From: Dioscorea cayenensis subsp. rotundata
Taxonomy: Eukaryota; Streptophyta; Magnoliopsida; Dioscoreales; Dioscoreaceae
Reading direction: 5' to 3'
Assembly (NCBI RefSeq): GCF_009730915.1
Contig: NC_052495.1
Span: forward strand, 372,001 to 436,000
Length of the DNA: 64,000 nt
Part shown: piece by piece, positions 15,458-64,000 of the stretch
Position numbering within the stretch: position 1 is the stretch's first letter
How the letters are laid out: each line of letters opens with the position of its first letter
Position numbers and translations under genes: made by a program
Notes under the pieces: generated by a model
Seen by the model: only the letters and a program-made list of their open reading frames with translations
The model's database searches: none
What the model was told of the DNA's origin: nothing

Positions 15458-16369
15458 CTAAATTGTCACCATCTCGATTTTTTCAGCAACAACAACAGAA
15501 GCAGCAGCAGTAGGAGCAAGAGCAGTAGAAGAAGAACCATCATAAAGCCAAGTCTTAAGTCCATAAATCGTAATCCGACCAAAATACCGAAGAAGACAAA
15601 CATAAAGTTTTTCTTTCGCTAAATATCCACCACTCCACTGTGTATAAACTCCAGATTCATTATACCCTTGAAGAAGAAGCTGTCCATGAGACGTAAGCTC
15701 AAGGAAGCACTGTGTTGGTTCAGCACTCGTTGGCCATGAATGCCATATAGTCTTATTAGTAGTATCATCCTTCACAGCGAGTGCACACTTATTAGTAATA
15801 ACAGTTGAAACCTTACCGTTTTGTGCAATAACAACATCACCATTCGCACTGCCAGTGACAATGTCACCAGGGAAAAGAATGTAATCTGCGAACCCTGTCT
15901 TTAGCTTTTCATGGTTAAGGCCTCTGGTGGGTTCGTTGATATTAAATAAAGTTGAACGCGAGACACCATTGTTCCAGATGGCAGGCCCGAAGATACCAAG
16001 CTTGCCGTCTAGGAATAGCAAAGCGTAACTCCCGGAGTAGGCCTTCTTGCTGATGGCTTGGGTGATGGTTCGCTCATTATCAGGGACGAGAAGAAGTCGG
16101 CCATATTGGCTGACTAAGAGGGCACAGTATGAGGTGGTGGTGCTCGTGTTGAAGTCTAGGACGGGGATGCCGGCTTTGTAGAGGATAAGGCCACAGTCGT
16201 TGGACAGGGATAAAGTTAGGTCACCGTCAGTGAGGCTTTGGCCGCCGAAGAGGAATTGGAGAGGCTCCGAGAACATGGCTTGGGTTTCTGCATGGGAGGA
16301 TGATGGGTGGATGAGAAGACATAGGGAAAGGATTAATGGCCATGGGAGGAGATGATAGTGATCAGTCAT
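15458..16369 (-). CDS. Two-domain GNA-type (B-lectin) protein, intact copy
   Basis: This single-exon gene encodes 303 residues. Residues 1-27 are a signal peptide (hydrophobic LILSLCLLIHPSS, then SHA). Two bulb-type lectin domains follow, at about 35-145 and 158-275, then an Ala/Val-rich tail ending EKIEMVTI. Domain hallmarks are FLFGGQSLTDGDLTLSLSND and IFGPAIWNNG in the first and GSANGDVVIAQNG and YGLKTW in the second. GNA-family proteins bind mannose through QxDxNxVxY in each of three subdomains; here the best match is NDCGLILY (57-64), and no site is complete, so sugar binding may be lost or altered. A secreted storage or defence role is an inference from the family. The start matches the paralogues at 27471 and 40513. 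A TATA box lies 67-74 bp upstream. Confidence 0.9.
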   Translation of the reverse strand: MTDHYHLLPWPLILSLCLLIHPSSSHAETQAMFSEPLQFLFGGQSLTDGDLTLSLSNDCGLILYKAGIPVLDFNTSTTTSYCALLVSQYGRLLLVPDNERTITQAISKKAYSGSYALLFLDGKLGIFGPAIWNNGVSRSTLFNINEPTRGLNHEKLKTGFADYILFPGDIVTGSANGDVVIAQNGKVSTVITNKCALAVKDDTTNKTIWHSWPTSAEPTQCFLELTSHGQLLLQGYNESGVYTQWSGGYLAKEKLYVCLLRYFGRITIYGLKTWLYDGSSSTALAPTAAASVVVAEKIEMVTI

Positions 16370-16435
16370 TGTTTTTAGTTGTTTTTTTGGTTACTTAATT
16401 TGAGTTTGTGTGAGTTTGGTGTAAGGTTGCATGGA

Positions 16436-26567: not shown

Positions 26568-27471
26568 CTAAGCAGTGACCATCTTAATCTTCTCAGCAAC
26601 AACAGCGGCAACAGCACCAGCAGAAGAAGAACCATCTTGATAAAGCCAAGTCTTAAGTCCATAAATAGCAATCCGACCAAAATACCGAAGAAGACAAACA
26701 TATAGATTCTCTCTCGCTGTATATCCACCTTTCCACTGTGTATAAACTCCAGATTCATTATACCCTTGAAGAAGCAGCTCTCCATGAGACGTAAGCTCAA
26801 GGAAGCACTGTGTTGGTTCAGCACTCGTTGGCCATGTAGACCATATAGTCTTACCAGTATCATCCTTTACAGCGAGTGCACACTTTTTAGTAATAACAGT
26901 TGAAATATTGCCATTTTGAGCAATAACAACATCACCATTTGCACTGCCAGTGGCAATGTTACCAGAGAAAAGAATGTAATCTGTGGAACCAGCTGTCTTC
27001 AGTTCTTCATGGTTAAGGTCTAGGCTGGGTTTGTTCATATCAAAGAAAGTTTTAGGCGTGACACCATTGTTCCAGATGGCAGGACCGAAGATACCAAGTT
27101 TTGCCGTCTACGAATAGCAAAGCGTATCGACCGGAATAGGTCTTCTTGCCGATGGTTTGAGTGGGGGTTCGCTCGGTATCGGCGACCAGAATGAGTTGGC
27201 CGTCTTCGCTGACGAAGAGGGCACAGTATGAGGTGGTGGTGCTTGTGTTGAAGTCTAGGACGGGGATGCTGGCTTTGTGGAGGATAAGGCCACAATCATT
27301 GGATAGGGATAAAGTTAAGTCACCGTCGGTGAGGCTTTGGCCGCCGAAGAGGAGTTGGAGAGGCTGCGAGAATATGGCTTGTGTTGCTGCATGGGAGGAT
27401 GATGATGGGAGGATGAGGAAAAGAATTTGGACAAGGATCAATGGGAGGAGAAGATGATGATGATGAGCCAT
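26568..27471 (-). pseudogene. Two-domain GNA-type lectin with a single-base frameshift
   Basis: This is the same architecture as the intact paralogue: signal peptide (LLLPLILVQILFLILPSSSS), first lectin domain with FGGQSLTDGDLTLSLSND, second domain with GSANGDVVIAQNG, and a C-terminus ending VAEKIKMVTA. At 27099-27102 there is a run of four T where the paralogue has CTT, so the frame shifts inside the first domain (after FVDGK) and ends 24 codons later. The second domain is open in its own frame (26568 to about 27095). The TATA position reads TACAAATA instead of TATAAATA. It is either a young pseudogene or a one-base assembly error. Duplicated 3' flank at about 26050-26567 ties it to the array. 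Confidence 0.85.
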
Positions 27472-27564
27472 TAATAATTGGTTTTTTGTTGGAGAGTGTG
27501 CTTAATTTATTTTTGGTTACTTTGAGTTTGTGTGATCAATTTGAGGGTGGCATGGGTATTTGTA

Positions 27565-39367: not shown

Positions 39368-39695
39368 GTTAGAATTAATCTTGTTATTGCATTTAGGACC
39401 CTATGTTATTTATATATTACGTTTAGGCAGTGTTGCATTTATGCATTTAAGTTTGCAGTTATGACCCTCCTTGTTTTATAAATTGCATTTGTATTTAAAA
39501 TTATGTTAGGATTATGTTTAGATAAGTTTGTTAGTTTGAATCTTTTTAGTTTCTTGGTGGCTAAGTAACTTAGTTTGAATTCAGTTATCAATATCAATAT
39601 AAAAGATAGAAAGGTGGGGAGTTTTTGTTGATCGCGTCAAAATTAACTCATCTTCTTTGAGTATTCTTTGTATGTTTTTCTCTGATTTTCCTAAG
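39368..39695 (+). mobile_element. Short LTR-like insertion in the third lectin gene
   Basis: This 328-bp segment begins (T)GTTAGAATTAATCTTG and contains TTGCATTTAGGACC, like the start of plant Copia LTRs. It ends TTTTCCTAAGA. The lectin sequence AGCCAAGTCT is present on both sides (39358-39367 and 39696-39705), so the target was duplicated. Ten bases is longer than the usual five for LTR elements, so the class is not settled. Confidence 0.6.
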
Positions 39696-40513
39696 AGCCA
39701 AGTCTTAAGTCCATAAATAGCAATCCGACCAAAATACCGAAGAAAACAAACATATAGTTTCTCTCTGGCTGCATATCCAACTTTCCACTTTGTATAAACT
39801 CCATATTCATTATACCCTTGAAGACGAAGCTCTCCATGAGACGAAAACTCAAGGAAGCAATGTGTTGGTCCAGCACTCGTTGTCCATGAATGCCATATAG
39901 TCTTATTAGTAGTACCATCCTTCACAGTGAGTGCACACTTATTAGTAATAACAGTTGAAACCTTGCCGTTTTGTGCAATAACAACATCACCATTCGCACT
40001 ACCAGTGACAATGTCACCAGAGAAAATAATGTAATCTGCGAACCCTGTCTTTAGCTTTTCATGGTTAAGGCCTCTGGTGGGTTCGTTGATATTAAATAAA
40101 GTTGAACGCGAGACACCATTGTTCCAGATGGCAGGCCCGAAGATACCAAGCTTGATGTCTACGAATCGCAAAGCGTAACTCTCGGAGTAGGCCTTCTTGC
40201 TGATCGCTTGGGTGATGGTTCGCTCATTATCAGGAACCAGAAGAAGTCGGCCATATTGGTTGACTAAGAGGGCACAGTATGAGGTGGTGGTGCTCGTGTT
40301 GAAGTCTAGGACGGGGATGCCGGCTTTGTAGAGTATAAGGCCACAGTCGTTGGATAGGGATAAAGTTAGGTCACCGTCGGTGAGGCTTTGGCTGCCGAAG
40401 AGGAATTGGAGAGGCTCCAAGAACATGGTTTGGGTTTCTGCATGGGAGGATGATGGGAGGATGAGAAGACTTAGGGAAAGGATTAATGGGAGGAGATGAT
40501 AGTGATCAACCAT
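39581..40513 (-). CDS. GNA-type lectin with transposon-derived C-terminus
   Basis: This open frame encodes 310 residues from the ATG at 40513 (MVDHYHLLPLIL...). An in-frame ATG at 40669 would add 52 residues, but the paralogues start at the equivalent of 40513 and the TATA box (40588-40595) lies between the two, so I reject the longer form. It has a signal peptide (about 1-25), a first lectin domain (FLFGSQSLTDGDLTLSLSND, IFGPAIWNNG) and a second (GSANGDVVIAQNG, YGLKTW). After LKTWL the last 37 residues are encoded by the inserted LTR-like sequence (starting LGKSEKNIQ, ending FYIDIDN) and replace the family's DGSS...EKIEMVTI tail. Both domains are complete, so a folded secreted protein is possible. 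Sugar sites are as degenerate as in the intact copy. Confidence 0.75.
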   Translation of the reverse strand: MVDHYHLLPLILSLSLLILPSSSHAETQTMFLEPLQFLFGSQSLTDGDLTLSLSNDCGLILYKAGIPVLDFNTSTTTSYCALLVNQYGRLLLVPDNERTITQAISKKAYSESYALRFVDIKLGIFGPAIWNNGVSRSTLFNINEPTRGLNHEKLKTGFADYIIFSGDIVTGSANGDVVIAQNGKVSTVITNKCALTVKDGTTNKTIWHSWTTSAGPTHCFLEFSSHGELRLQGYNEYGVYTKWKVGYAAREKLYVCFLRYFGRIAIYGLKTWLLGKSEKNIQRILKEDELILTRSTKTPHLSIFYIDIDN

Positions 40514-40587
40514 TTGGTTTAGTTGGTTTTGGTTTCTTAATTTGAGTTTGTGTGAGCTTGAGGTGGATGTAATTAAGGTTGCATAAA

Positions 40588-40595
40588 TATTTATA
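40588..40595 (-). promoter_or_regulatory. TATA box of the third lectin copy
   Basis: TATAAATA on the minus strand, about 75 bp upstream of the ATG at 40513, at the same place as in the intact copy. It supports the 40513 start over the upstream ATG at 40669. Confidence 0.65.
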
Positions 40596-40708
40596 GATGG
40601 AGGGAAAGGGGAAGTTGTATAATTGAGGGGTGGTTTGGTCAATTTACTTGCATGGACAAATGGTGACATGCTTTTTTTTTCTTGTCAATTTATGGTGTTG
40701 TATTTTTC

Positions 40709-40969: not shown

Positions 40970-41187
40970 GTCAATTTAAGGTGTTGTATTTTTCCTGAAT
41001 TTGTGGTCCTTGTTTTTTTTTTTTTTACTAATAATTAATAGATATGTGATTCTAAAATATTTAATTAATTAATTTTTTTTAACATTTGTCACTTTAGTAC
41101 ACACTTATACCTGTTAAGTTTGTTAACACTGGCTTGAAAAGATTCCGATGGATAAACAACATATTTTATATTTTAAATTAATGAAAA

Positions 41188-42187
41188 NNNNNNNNNNNNN
41201 NNNNNNNNNNNNNNNNNNNNNNNNNNNNNNNNNNNNNNNNNNNNNNNNNNNNNNNNNNNNNNNNNNNNNNNNNNNNNNNNNNNNNNNNNNNNNNNNNNNN
41301 NNNNNNNNNNNNNNNNNNNNNNNNNNNNNNNNNNNNNNNNNNNNNNNNNNNNNNNNNNNNNNNNNNNNNNNNNNNNNNNNNNNNNNNNNNNNNNNNNNNN
41401 NNNNNNNNNNNNNNNNNNNNNNNNNNNNNNNNNNNNNNNNNNNNNNNNNNNNNNNNNNNNNNNNNNNNNNNNNNNNNNNNNNNNNNNNNNNNNNNNNNNN
41501 NNNNNNNNNNNNNNNNNNNNNNNNNNNNNNNNNNNNNNNNNNNNNNNNNNNNNNNNNNNNNNNNNNNNNNNNNNNNNNNNNNNNNNNNNNNNNNNNNNNN
41601 NNNNNNNNNNNNNNNNNNNNNNNNNNNNNNNNNNNNNNNNNNNNNNNNNNNNNNNNNNNNNNNNNNNNNNNNNNNNNNNNNNNNNNNNNNNNNNNNNNNN
41701 NNNNNNNNNNNNNNNNNNNNNNNNNNNNNNNNNNNNNNNNNNNNNNNNNNNNNNNNNNNNNNNNNNNNNNNNNNNNNNNNNNNNNNNNNNNNNNNNNNNN
41801 NNNNNNNNNNNNNNNNNNNNNNNNNNNNNNNNNNNNNNNNNNNNNNNNNNNNNNNNNNNNNNNNNNNNNNNNNNNNNNNNNNNNNNNNNNNNNNNNNNNN
41901 NNNNNNNNNNNNNNNNNNNNNNNNNNNNNNNNNNNNNNNNNNNNNNNNNNNNNNNNNNNNNNNNNNNNNNNNNNNNNNNNNNNNNNNNNNNNNNNNNNNN
42001 NNNNNNNNNNNNNNNNNNNNNNNNNNNNNNNNNNNNNNNNNNNNNNNNNNNNNNNNNNNNNNNNNNNNNNNNNNNNNNNNNNNNNNNNNNNNNNNNNNNN
42101 NNNNNNNNNNNNNNNNNNNNNNNNNNNNNNNNNNNNNNNNNNNNNNNNNNNNNNNNNNNNNNNNNNNNNNNNNNNNNNNNNNNNNNN
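41188..42187. other. Assembly gap of exactly 1000 N
   Basis: A round-number run of N marks a scaffold join of unknown true size, just beyond the promoter of the third lectin copy. The 350-codon open frame spanning it is an artefact of the N run. Confidence 0.99.
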
Positions 42188-43047
42188 GAGGGGTATTTAA
42201 AAAAGTAAAGAAACTATTTAGAAAATTATACCTATGAATATATATATATATATATATATAGGAGTTTTCATTTTTGCCTTAGTTTTCAAGAAGTGGCTTT
42301 TCTCGATGTGACATTAATTTGTGTGTTATTATTTACAATGTACTTATAGTTTTACAGTTTATTTATTTTATTAAATATCATCATATTCAATACCGTAGTT
42401 AAGTAATTTCCTTCCTAGCTTAAAAACTGAAACATGCAATATGGTAATTAGTATTTTATTTATAACATATAAGGCCGACTTTTATCTTTTGGCTTTAACC
42501 TTCTTCTGTTAATAAATAACAAAAGCTAAAGTCCTTTTTCATAGTAGTAAGAAGGACTATTCAGTTCTTAAAATCACCTATAAACAATAAACGTGACTTG
42601 GTGACCAAGCCCCAAACCGCTGGCAAGTCTCTTTCCATTTTCTTCTATTTACCCTTGAGAGGAAATTCTCTCTTAGTTCAGAGTTTATTTGTATTTTGGT
42701 GTGTTGTTTATTTTTTTCACCTCGATTGTATTTACGTATTTTTCCTATTATATGGATTCTTGTGACATTTTATGTTGTTTGGTTTTTTTAATAAAATTAT
42801 GATTTATTTATTTTAAAAAAAATCATGTCCACAATTAAAAAATATTAAATAAATTTTATTTTATTATAAAAATCACCGACTCTTAATTTACTATGTTATG
42901 AAAGGACAACTTTCTTCTACGGAATTATTCCACTTTCTTCTACGGATAAATTTTGGTGAGAAATATCATTATATAAAAAAACCTCAATTTATTTATTATT
43001 TTATTTATTTATCTCTTCTTTTTACCTTAAATTTTTCCTTAAATTTG
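42188..43047. other. AT-rich DNA with LINE-tail-like sequence
   Basis: About 42640-42815 is T-rich and ends TTAATAAAATTATGATTTATTT then poly-A-like sequence, as in plant LINE 3' ends. The rest shows nothing recognisable. Confidence 0.35.
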
Positions 43048-51319: not shown

Positions 51320-52636
51320 GCGTTTTAAGAGCTCATCTTTCTTCTTCTTCTTCTTCGTCTTGTTGAGCACTTCACATGGGAAGCTTCCTTGTTATCAGGT
51401 ACGCGTTTACTTTTTGGTTGTTTATTATTATTATTATTTAAAAAAAAATTAGAAATAAATAAATAAATAAATATTTTGTAATAAAGAAAGAGGTAAAAAC
51501 ATAGTTTAAATGTTAAAAATAATTTAATTTTGAAATGGGTGGGAAGTAAAAATGTCTTTATATATCAAGTTATCAACGTGATGGGTTATTAATTAGGGAG
51601 TGATTAGGAGGTTTGATTAATTAAGTAAAAGGTGTTTTATTATTTAATATTATTATATATATGTATATAGTGTGATCACGTTGGGAGTGATGGGTGAACC
51701 ACGTGCAGTCAGCTTGCGGACAGTTCACGGGAAGCTGGCATTTGTTCCGGTTTCGCCCGCAGTTACTTCTCCACCGCCGCTCATCATCATCATCATCTGC
51801 CACCCATTCCCTTCTCTTGCTTTGAGATACGTGCTTTCTTTTTTCAACATTTGCCATCTATAATTATTGATTAGGATTGTTGAACTATTATATATCAGGT
51901 CTGATGGCAATGGCGTATAAGCATGCAAAAGAATGTTTTTTTTTTTCTTTAATTTTTAATTGTGGGGAAGAAATTTTTAACCCTTAAAACATAAATACCA
52001 CCGACCGCCTTTTAACATATTGGTACCGAATCTTTTGTGTAATTTATTTATTTTGAAAAGAACCCATGATCAAATCCAAAAACACACTCAAAGTAAGGCT
52101 ATAGATGCTTATTGAGATTTCTTCACGCCTATTCATATCTATGACACACACTCGTCATGTTTTGTAAATAAATAAATATCTCCGTATGATCCATTTACTA
52201 GAGACATATGTACATAACAATTTTATTCACATTTCTATCACAGCTAGTGAATTTGAATCCAATGGTCGCTAATCATTTATTGTTACAAACAGTATTCACC
52301 AAACAGTATCAAATAGTGCAATCAATAGGGTTATGTGTATTATTTATCATATTGTTTACATTCATAACAACTAAGTTTCCTATTTTTCTCTAATTTTTTT
52401 TTTAACAAAGGCAACAAGCACCACCCCACAATAGGGTGTCGAAGGACAAACAGGTTCGGAAGTGCACCAGTTACAATAGCTTAACTACCCCTAGAAATTT
52501 ATTAACTCGGTCAGATAGGGCAATTAGATTCCTACCATGTGTAGGCCTAAAAGATATTTCAGAAATCAAACTTAATTAATAAGTCTTTTTAATTTATAGA
52601 TGTTCTAGGACGTTAGCATAACCATAATGAATCGTG

Positions 52637-62071: not shown

Positions 62072-64000
62072 CTACTCCAGAGCTGGTTGTGCAGAGCTCT
62101 GGCCATATCCACCTCCACCCCGACCAAATCCTGGACGACCACCAGTGCCCTGTGAATAATACATAACAAGCGAAGTCAGGGATTTTTGTATCCTAATAAT
62201 AGAAATTTTGTTTGCTAAATGGCACAATGATAAATCCTTAGAAAAGCATGTGCTGCAAAATACAACTCATTGCCCACAAATTACATTTGTGTCCATTGGC
62301 AAAACATGGTTAACTCAAGGCGGAAATGAAACTGAGGTATGCAACACAAAATCACATGGCATGGAGATGGTCAACAGATACATATTTGTCAAGCAAGGGA
62401 AAAAAAATGTCTATATATCAATAAGACATGGCTAAACAATATTCACATTTGACTACTAGCAACAGAAAATGCTCATATGCAAATAAATGAATGAAAGATC
62501 CATCAGAGTTGGATTGGAAGTCATCCTGGACAGAGTGTCTCAGATGACCGTCGTGATGTAATTTCTCATCACTTGGACTAAAGAACCGCATGGCATAGAG
62601 ATGAAAAGTTTAGTTCATTGGACAAAAGACAGGGATTTGCAAGCAGGAGAAAATTTTTGTCTATATATCTACAAAACCCAACTGAATAATATTTACTCCA
62701 TTTTAACTTTCAAATTTGACTACTAGCAACAGAATTTTCACAAGCTAATAACAGAAGGAAAGACCCATCAGAGTTGGATTGAAAATCATCTTGGACAGAG
62801 TCTATCTCAGATGACCGTCGTGATGTAATTTCTCATCACATGGTTTATTTCCTTCCTAGCTTGTAAATGAGGTAACAGAGAAAAAGGTGTCAAAATTGGA
62901 ATGGCAAGATAATTGCGAAAGGGAAACAACAATAGAGAAAAAGAAAAAAAAATTGACAGTGAAACATTGGTAAAAGCATATTCTTTCCAAGCCCGCGTTG
63001 ATGCTCACTCAAATGACATGACAATCGCAATACATAATAGAGAGAGCAGTGGTGATGGACAATTCCATCACTTGATGATATTGGAAACAAAGACAAATAG
63101 GCAACTGATACTCTGCTAGTACCAATATTCACCACTTATGATTAACAATATGGCAATATGATACCAGACCTTTTCATGCTATCTGAACCTACACCAATCA
63201 ATTTATGGAAAGATAAATAGAAGAATTGTACCAAAAAAAATTCCATGGGAAGCTACAAACAACCCAGTGTTTTGGTAAGGTATCAAAAGAAATCCAAACT
63301 AAAGCAGAGTGTATAACATGAAAAAGAAAAGGCATGGCACTGCATGGGATCAGACTGACGTGCAATGCTTCATCAGAACTATCTGAAATAAGACAGCCTC
63401 TGATATAATGATACTTATCATTGGCATCATTTCCCAAAAACAATGCAAATAAATAAATACATAAAATAATTTACAGCAATAAACAACAGAAGTGTAATAT
63501 GACTTCCCCTATCGGATTATGTGTCTGGGAATGCATTACTAGTTATGCGGCACACAGAATGTAACAGCATTTAACTGGCATCAAGATGATCACAAGGCAG
63601 CAATGCTATTGAACCAAACAAGGCTATCAAGGATTTCAATGACCACATAGGCCACATATACCTCTAAAACATCAACTAGATTGTACATATATAAATAGAA
63701 GAGTTGCAAGTGGCATTTACCAAGGATAACTAAAAAGAATAATGTAAAAAAATAATCAAATCAAAATTTGAACCTTCAAAAGAATAAAGGCAAGTCGAAG
63801 AAGATTACAACAAGAGGTCTTACCCTAAACGATGGCTGAAACTCTGGCGGAGCACCACCCTTGTCACCACCAAAATCACCACCTCCACGAGGACCCCCGC
63901 GGTAGCCATCCCTATCTCCAAACCTCGGCCTGTCTCCTTCGAAACGCGGGGGACCCCTATAAAATACAATAAATTGATCCAAATATCAACAGAAAGTTAG
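62072..64000 (-). CDS. RPS10: 40S ribosomal protein eS10, 3' part (runs off the window)
   Basis: The last two exons are visible on the minus strand. Exon 63824-63956 encodes [20 protein letters not shown] and then [19 protein letters not shown], ending QPSFR. The final exon, 62072-62149, encodes [19 protein letters not shown] then AQPALE and stop. The order of these Gly/Arg-rich blocks is that of the C-terminal tail of plant eS10 of the small ribosomal subunit. Splice sites are AGG|GTAAG and CACAG|GGC, phase 0. The N-terminal S10/plectin domain exons lie beyond 64000. The 1.67-kb last intron contains two box C/D snoRNA candidates. Confidence 0.9.
62499..62577 (-). ncRNA. Box C/D snoRNA candidate 1 in the eS10 intron
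   Basis: On the minus strand, same sense as the host gene: terminal stem TCCA, C box GTGATGA (62566-62572), guide ATTACATCACGACGGTCAT, D' box CTGA (62540-62543), C'-like GATGACT, second guide AATCCAACT, D box CTGA (62503-62506), closing stem TGGA. Length, box order and the four-base terminal stem all fit a C/D snoRNA, and ribosomal-protein introns are standard hosts. The rRNA target is not identified. Confidence 0.75.
62764..62845 (-). ncRNA. Box C/D snoRNA candidate 2 in the eS10 intron
   Basis: A paralogue of candidate 1, about 260 bp upstream in gene direction: C box GTGATGA (62833-62839), identical guide and D' box CTGA, C'-like GATGATT, second guide AATCCAACT, D box CTGA (62768-62771), and flanking CCA/TGG able to pair. 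The boxes and guides are preserved while the linker between D' and C' differs by an insertion and substitutions. Confidence 0.75.

Follow-up and report, generated by a model that had tools for sequence, protein, structure and literature searches.

The last intron of a gene for the ribosomal protein eS10 lies on the minus strand at the far end of the window (the whole 64,000-nt stretch of DNA analyzed here). Splice sites and frames judged by eye give an intron of 1,674 nt, the final one ahead of the stop codon at 62072-62074. The exons flanking it encode the C-terminus of plant eS10 by structure-chain match: their joined translation matches six distinct solved chains, five named S10 or eS10 and one an S10_plectin domain protein, and the best of these is 4v7e_BK, 40S ribosomal protein S10E (E 2.1e-24), from a structure that we take to be of wheat. 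An Rfam search of the whole window at gathering thresholds returned a single RNA, the box C/D snoRNA snoZ122, which lies in this intron. Two further elements, designated copies A and B, occupy the same intron (table). A sequence-only reading had described them as a tandem box C/D snoRNA pair in the last eS10 intron, and both copies are indeed located there, on the minus strand. With snoZ122 as their neighbor, the U35-type pair makes this intron a three-snoRNA cluster, and the eS10 intron can be recorded as host of such a cluster; the sequence-only reading mentioned neither snoZ122 nor the part that the linker takes in the duplication.

The D-side guide of snoZ122, GCACGTCAGT, looks complementary to a conserved stretch of 25S domain II. 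A pattern search for LSU domain II, wanted as a target for this guide, returned 0 records. Arabidopsis SnoR122, which may or may not be the same RNA as snoZ122, is called an orphan in PMC8053127.

Elsewhere in the window, three mutually similar reading frames (15458-16390, 26568-27501 and 39581-40684 (-)) look like mannose-binding lectins. Three pieces of these frames were scanned against Pfam: two match B_lectin below the cut-off (23.5 and 21.3 versus 32.4 bits), and the piece at 39584-40684 has no Pfam match. About 1 kb near 41185-42190 is read as X in the reading frames and is apparently an assembly gap.

Table. Coordinates of the eS10 exon and intron, the snoRNAs and their boxes and guides
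Feature	Position	Strand	Basis
Last eS10 coding exon with stop codon	62072..62149	-	Sequence and structure-chain match
Last eS10 intron, GT...AG, host of three snoRNAs	62150..63823	-	Splice sites and frames by eye; eS10 match
snoRNA copy A, upstream on host strand, U35 / snoZ161_228 type	62763..62846	-	Rfam RF00328, 42.3 bits, E 2.1e-6
C box GTGATGA, copy A	62833..62839	-	Sequence
D' guide TCACGACGGTC, copy A	62813..62823	-	11 contiguous pairs with 25S GACCGUCGUGA, +5 = C2960; -21.7 kcal/mol
D' box CTGA, copy A	62807..62810	-	Sequence
C' box AAGATGA, copy A	62786..62792	-	Sequence
D guide CAATCCAAC, copy A	62773..62781	-	9 contiguous pairs with 25S GUUGGAUUG, +5 = G2918; -12.8 kcal/mol
D box CTGA, copy A	62768..62771	-	Sequence
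snoRNA copy B, U35 / snoZ161_228 type	62498..62579	-	Rfam RF00328, 40.1 bits, E 8.1e-6
C box GTGATGA, copy B	62566..62572	-	Sequence
D' guide TCACGACGGTC, copy B	62546..62556	-	+5 site C2960
D' box CTGA, copy B	62540..62543	-	Sequence
C' box AGGATGA, copy B	62521..62527	-	Sequence
D guide CAATCCAAC, copy B	62508..62516	-	+5 site G2918; -13.1 kcal/mol
D box CTGA, copy B	62503..62506	-	Sequence
Third box C/D snoRNA, snoZ122, same eS10 intron	63343..63438	-	Rfam RF00343, 51.5 bits, gathering 38

Both copies have the layout of a box C/D snoRNA, with a C box of the form RUGAUGA and a D box CUGA near their ends and a closing stem. All of the boxes named in the sequence-only reading, including the C'-like GATGA, are present in each. 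The pairing flanks that it also described are short in both copies, with five pairs, one of them G-U, in copy B and 3 bp, counted by eye, in copy A. A strict scan of the window for C box, D box and a stem of at least 4 gave two candidates, copy B and a match at 51709-51796; copy A was missed because its stem is 3 bp. The match at 51709-51796, on the minus strand with a stem of 4, has its C box inside a TGA-type simple repeat; it is probably a product of chance and apparently unrelated to the pair. Single-strand fold energies do not stand out: z is -1.54 and -1.95, and 12/200 and 6/200 shuffles fold equally well. In these predicted folds of the isolated RNA, some of the D' guide is taken up in pairing with the C box. 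Such folds provide no support for the snoRNA reading; the function of C/D snoRNAs is not known to depend on them.

Independent evidence of box C/D identity comes from the covariance model RF00328, which aligned full-length to both copies with the boxes and the D' guide in register, though at scores that do not reach its gathering score of 45 bits. Because of these scores, we call the pair U35-type by guide and target, not as a scored member of RF00328. The alignments lack 8 positions between the C box and the D' guide and contain smaller gaps ahead of D. One table lists RF00328 as AtU35 in clan CL00056, to which yeast snR73 and human U35 also belong; in the older numbering of that table, AtU35 is paired with Cm2949 and AtsnoR34 with Gm2907.

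The two copies lie 267 nt apart. A single tandem duplication, about 267 nt in length and comprising the snoRNA and its downstream linker, gave rise to them. Counted over aligned copy A bases, with gaps in copy B scored as mismatches and 3 snoRNA and 4 linker positions beyond the local alignment dropped, identity is kept at 73/81 snoRNA positions versus 113/179 in the linker. Within the snoRNA, the region from the C box through D' (62806-62839) is kept at 34/34 positions, the spacer with most of C' (62787-62805) at 15/19, and the D guide with the D box (62766-62786) at 19/21. The functional core is better preserved than the linker, in agreement with the sequence-only reading. An identical stretch ahead of D' had been pointed out before; the identity in fact spans 29 nt, from the C box to the base preceding the D' box (62811-62839 and 62544-62572), and a pattern search of the 64 kb allowing up to three mismatches found the two copies and no other occurrence (0/100 shuffles). 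The claim of a diverged linker holds for the linker overall, with the qualification that the linker belongs to the duplication and contains a 26-nt stretch outside the snoRNAs (62442-62467 versus 62709-62734) that is 96% identical. Because of this stretch, the snoRNA is not the sole well-kept part, and with two copies the youth of the duplication is inseparable from local constraint.

A relic of a decayed third copy possibly lies at 63049-63074 on the minus strand, where 19 of 26 nt agree with the C box and the beginning of the guide in the pair (0/200 dinucleotide shuffles of the intron); no CTGA is found there where D' and D would lie. A longer, gap-ridden alignment of this region with the copy B unit has a score reached by 1/200 plain shuffles. 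When the copy A unit was used to search for a third copy, the best alignment fell elsewhere, with a score reached by 20/200 shuffles.

Targets were sought on about 100 nt of conserved 3' LSU sequence from a eukaryotic record, L001, whose bases 1-361 match RF02543. Numbering was anchored by equating target position 9 with Arabidopsis U2922, and the letters agree at six other mapped sites (G2918, G2923, A2935, A2947, C2949 and C2960). In both copies, positions 3-13 of the D' guide form an uninterrupted run of 11 Watson-Crick pairs that places C2960 at the fifth nucleotide, and positions 2-10 of the D guide form a run of 9 that places G2918 there. Both nucleotides are 2'-O-methylated in Arabidopsis according to RiboMeth-seq (PMC8053127, Table 1), where U35 is given as the guide for C2960, and SnoR34 and SnoR6.3 as guides for G2918. 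Each copy thus carries a predicted guide for the site served by U35 and snR73 and, by register alone, one for the site served by SnoR34. The sequence-only reading had expected from the +5 rule that D' would direct methylation of a C and D that of a G, and the two predicted nucleotides are exactly such mapped sites. It had also suggested that the target might be unusual or unlisted; this idea is rejected because both guides fit known 25S sites.

The two sites are 42 nt apart in 25S, the same spacing as Cm2949 and Gm2907 in the older numbering, and they flank U2922 and G2923, which are labelled A-site in PMC8053127. Rows in a table of PMC11542601 read Gm2918-Gm2921-Gm2920-Gm4494 and Cm2960-Cm2963-Cm2962-Cm4536-Cm2959; going by the numbers and the table note, we take the columns to be Arabidopsis, two further plants, human and yeast. 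Neither 2960 nor 2918 appears as a number in the main text of PMC8351944.

How readily such matches arise was gauged against the seven known sites of PMC8053127 Table 1 that fall inside the 100-nt target (Um2954, from PMC11542601, was left out). Among 329 CTGA sites on both strands, four have 16 nt upstream that pair over at least 9 bp in +5 register on a known site, and all four belong to the pair, which has one D' box and one D box per copy. Outside the pair (62400-62900 excluded), the 9-bp level is attained by 12 of 124,906 16-mers and the 11-bp level by 2; in a set of 1,968,303 random 16-mers that includes the pair itself, the counts are 252 and 59. The shuffled D' guide reaches a known site at 11 bp in 3/300,000 trials, and the shuffled D guide does so at 9 bp in 29/300,000 (copy A) and 52/300,000 (copy B); these chance rates apply to the target stretch of about 100 nt only, and other parts of rRNA or snRNA may offer better pairings.

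Guides, targets and family alignment together point to a duplicated pair of U35-type box C/D snoRNAs, with a D' guide for C2960 and a D guide fitting G2918, a reading to which we assign a probability of roughly 93%. Both RNAs would most likely be trimmed out of the debranched eS10 intron, join the usual box C/D proteins, among them NOP56, NOP58 and 15.5K, and bring fibrillarin to C2960, with G2918 as a probable further target through the D side. We speculate that one RNA could hold the two sites simultaneously. The chances seem evenly balanced that U35 in this lineage is a true double guide for C2960 and G2918, taking over or sharing the job of SnoR34 and maybe bridging the two sites of one 25S molecule during assembly.

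A competing explanation, which bears solely on the G2918 step, is that the U35-type RNA acts through D' alone, on C2960, and that the D-side match arose by coincidence or gives no more than weak accessory pairing. Arabidopsis U35 is assigned just C2960 in PMC8053127, the Rfam RF00328 consensus line has no G2918 guide, and the D duplex is short, at 9 bp and -12.8/-13.1 kcal/mol versus -21.7 kcal/mol for D'. Against this, the D register falls exactly on a mapped site, as rarely happens in the shuffles described above, and the paired part together with the D box (CAATCCAACTCTGATGG) is the same in both copies. We consider action through D' alone a minority possibility, though one to be taken seriously. 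It is improbable that one or both copies are decaying, unexpressed duplicates: the D'-C' spacer differs between them, the closing stem of copy A is reduced to 3 bp and both RF00328 scores are below gathering, but the two copies agree fully in boxes C, D' and D and in the base-paired portions of both guides, and even the spacer with most of C' is largely kept. That the repeat is a chance or mobile-element sequence merely resembling a snoRNA, as its place in a duplication that includes non-snoRNA sequence might suggest, is extremely unlikely given the RF00328 E values, the exact register of two guides on known methylated sites and the CTGA-site, 16-mer and shuffled-guide controls, which argue strongly against chance resemblance.

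The duplicated U35-type reading turns what looked like an orphan into a concrete prediction, namely two rRNA nucleotides beside the A-site, one RNA and two gene copies. Should the D guide prove active, a conserved snoRNA would carry a second conserved target, and two marks that separate RNAs set in Arabidopsis would become coupled; the general picture of plant snoRNAs would be unchanged. Pattern searches with the D' core returned 0 records in viral_contigs and one in genome_contigs, a bacterial MAG contig in which neither a C box nor a second guide was seen by eye in 141 bases, and which we take to be a chance match. A U35 with a second, G2918 guide is not described in the portions of the plant snoRNA literature covered here (PMC8053127, PMC8351944, PMC11542601, PMC2780460, PMC8575768, PMC11222342, PMC3511168 and PMC3022908), and rice snoRNA papers might list one.

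In plants, ribosomal-protein introns as hosts and clusters of homologous snoRNAs have already been described (PMC3022908). The eS10 intron resembles the rice intronic loci in this respect, 15 of an estimated 31 of which lie inside ribosomal-protein introns according to that paper, whereas the term S10 is absent from its main text. On the G2918 side, the D guide is comparable to Arabidopsis SnoR34, Neurospora CD17 and human HBII-210, the listed guides for the equivalent site; these are separate snoRNAs, and the other targets of SnoR34 and CD17 are given as 18S U1273 and 18S Am154, not the C2960 equivalent. The closest likeness is to plant U35 (snoZ161_Z228, RF00328), in which the C box, the D' guide UCACGACGGUC, the D' box and the D end align in order with those of the pair and which in Arabidopsis serves C2960 (PMC8053127), the site predicted for the D' guide here. 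Yeast snR73 and human U35, with which Neurospora CD31 has been grouped, belong to the same clan and are listed for the equivalent site. The pair differs from the RF00328 consensus in being shorter between the C box and the D' guide and in its D-side guide, which fits G2918, and it differs from snR73 and human U35 in that each of these has one listed rRNA target and no listed G2918-type guide. U35 is an already-known, conserved snoRNA, and the D-side guide is the one feature of the pair without a counterpart in a U35 in the literature covered here.
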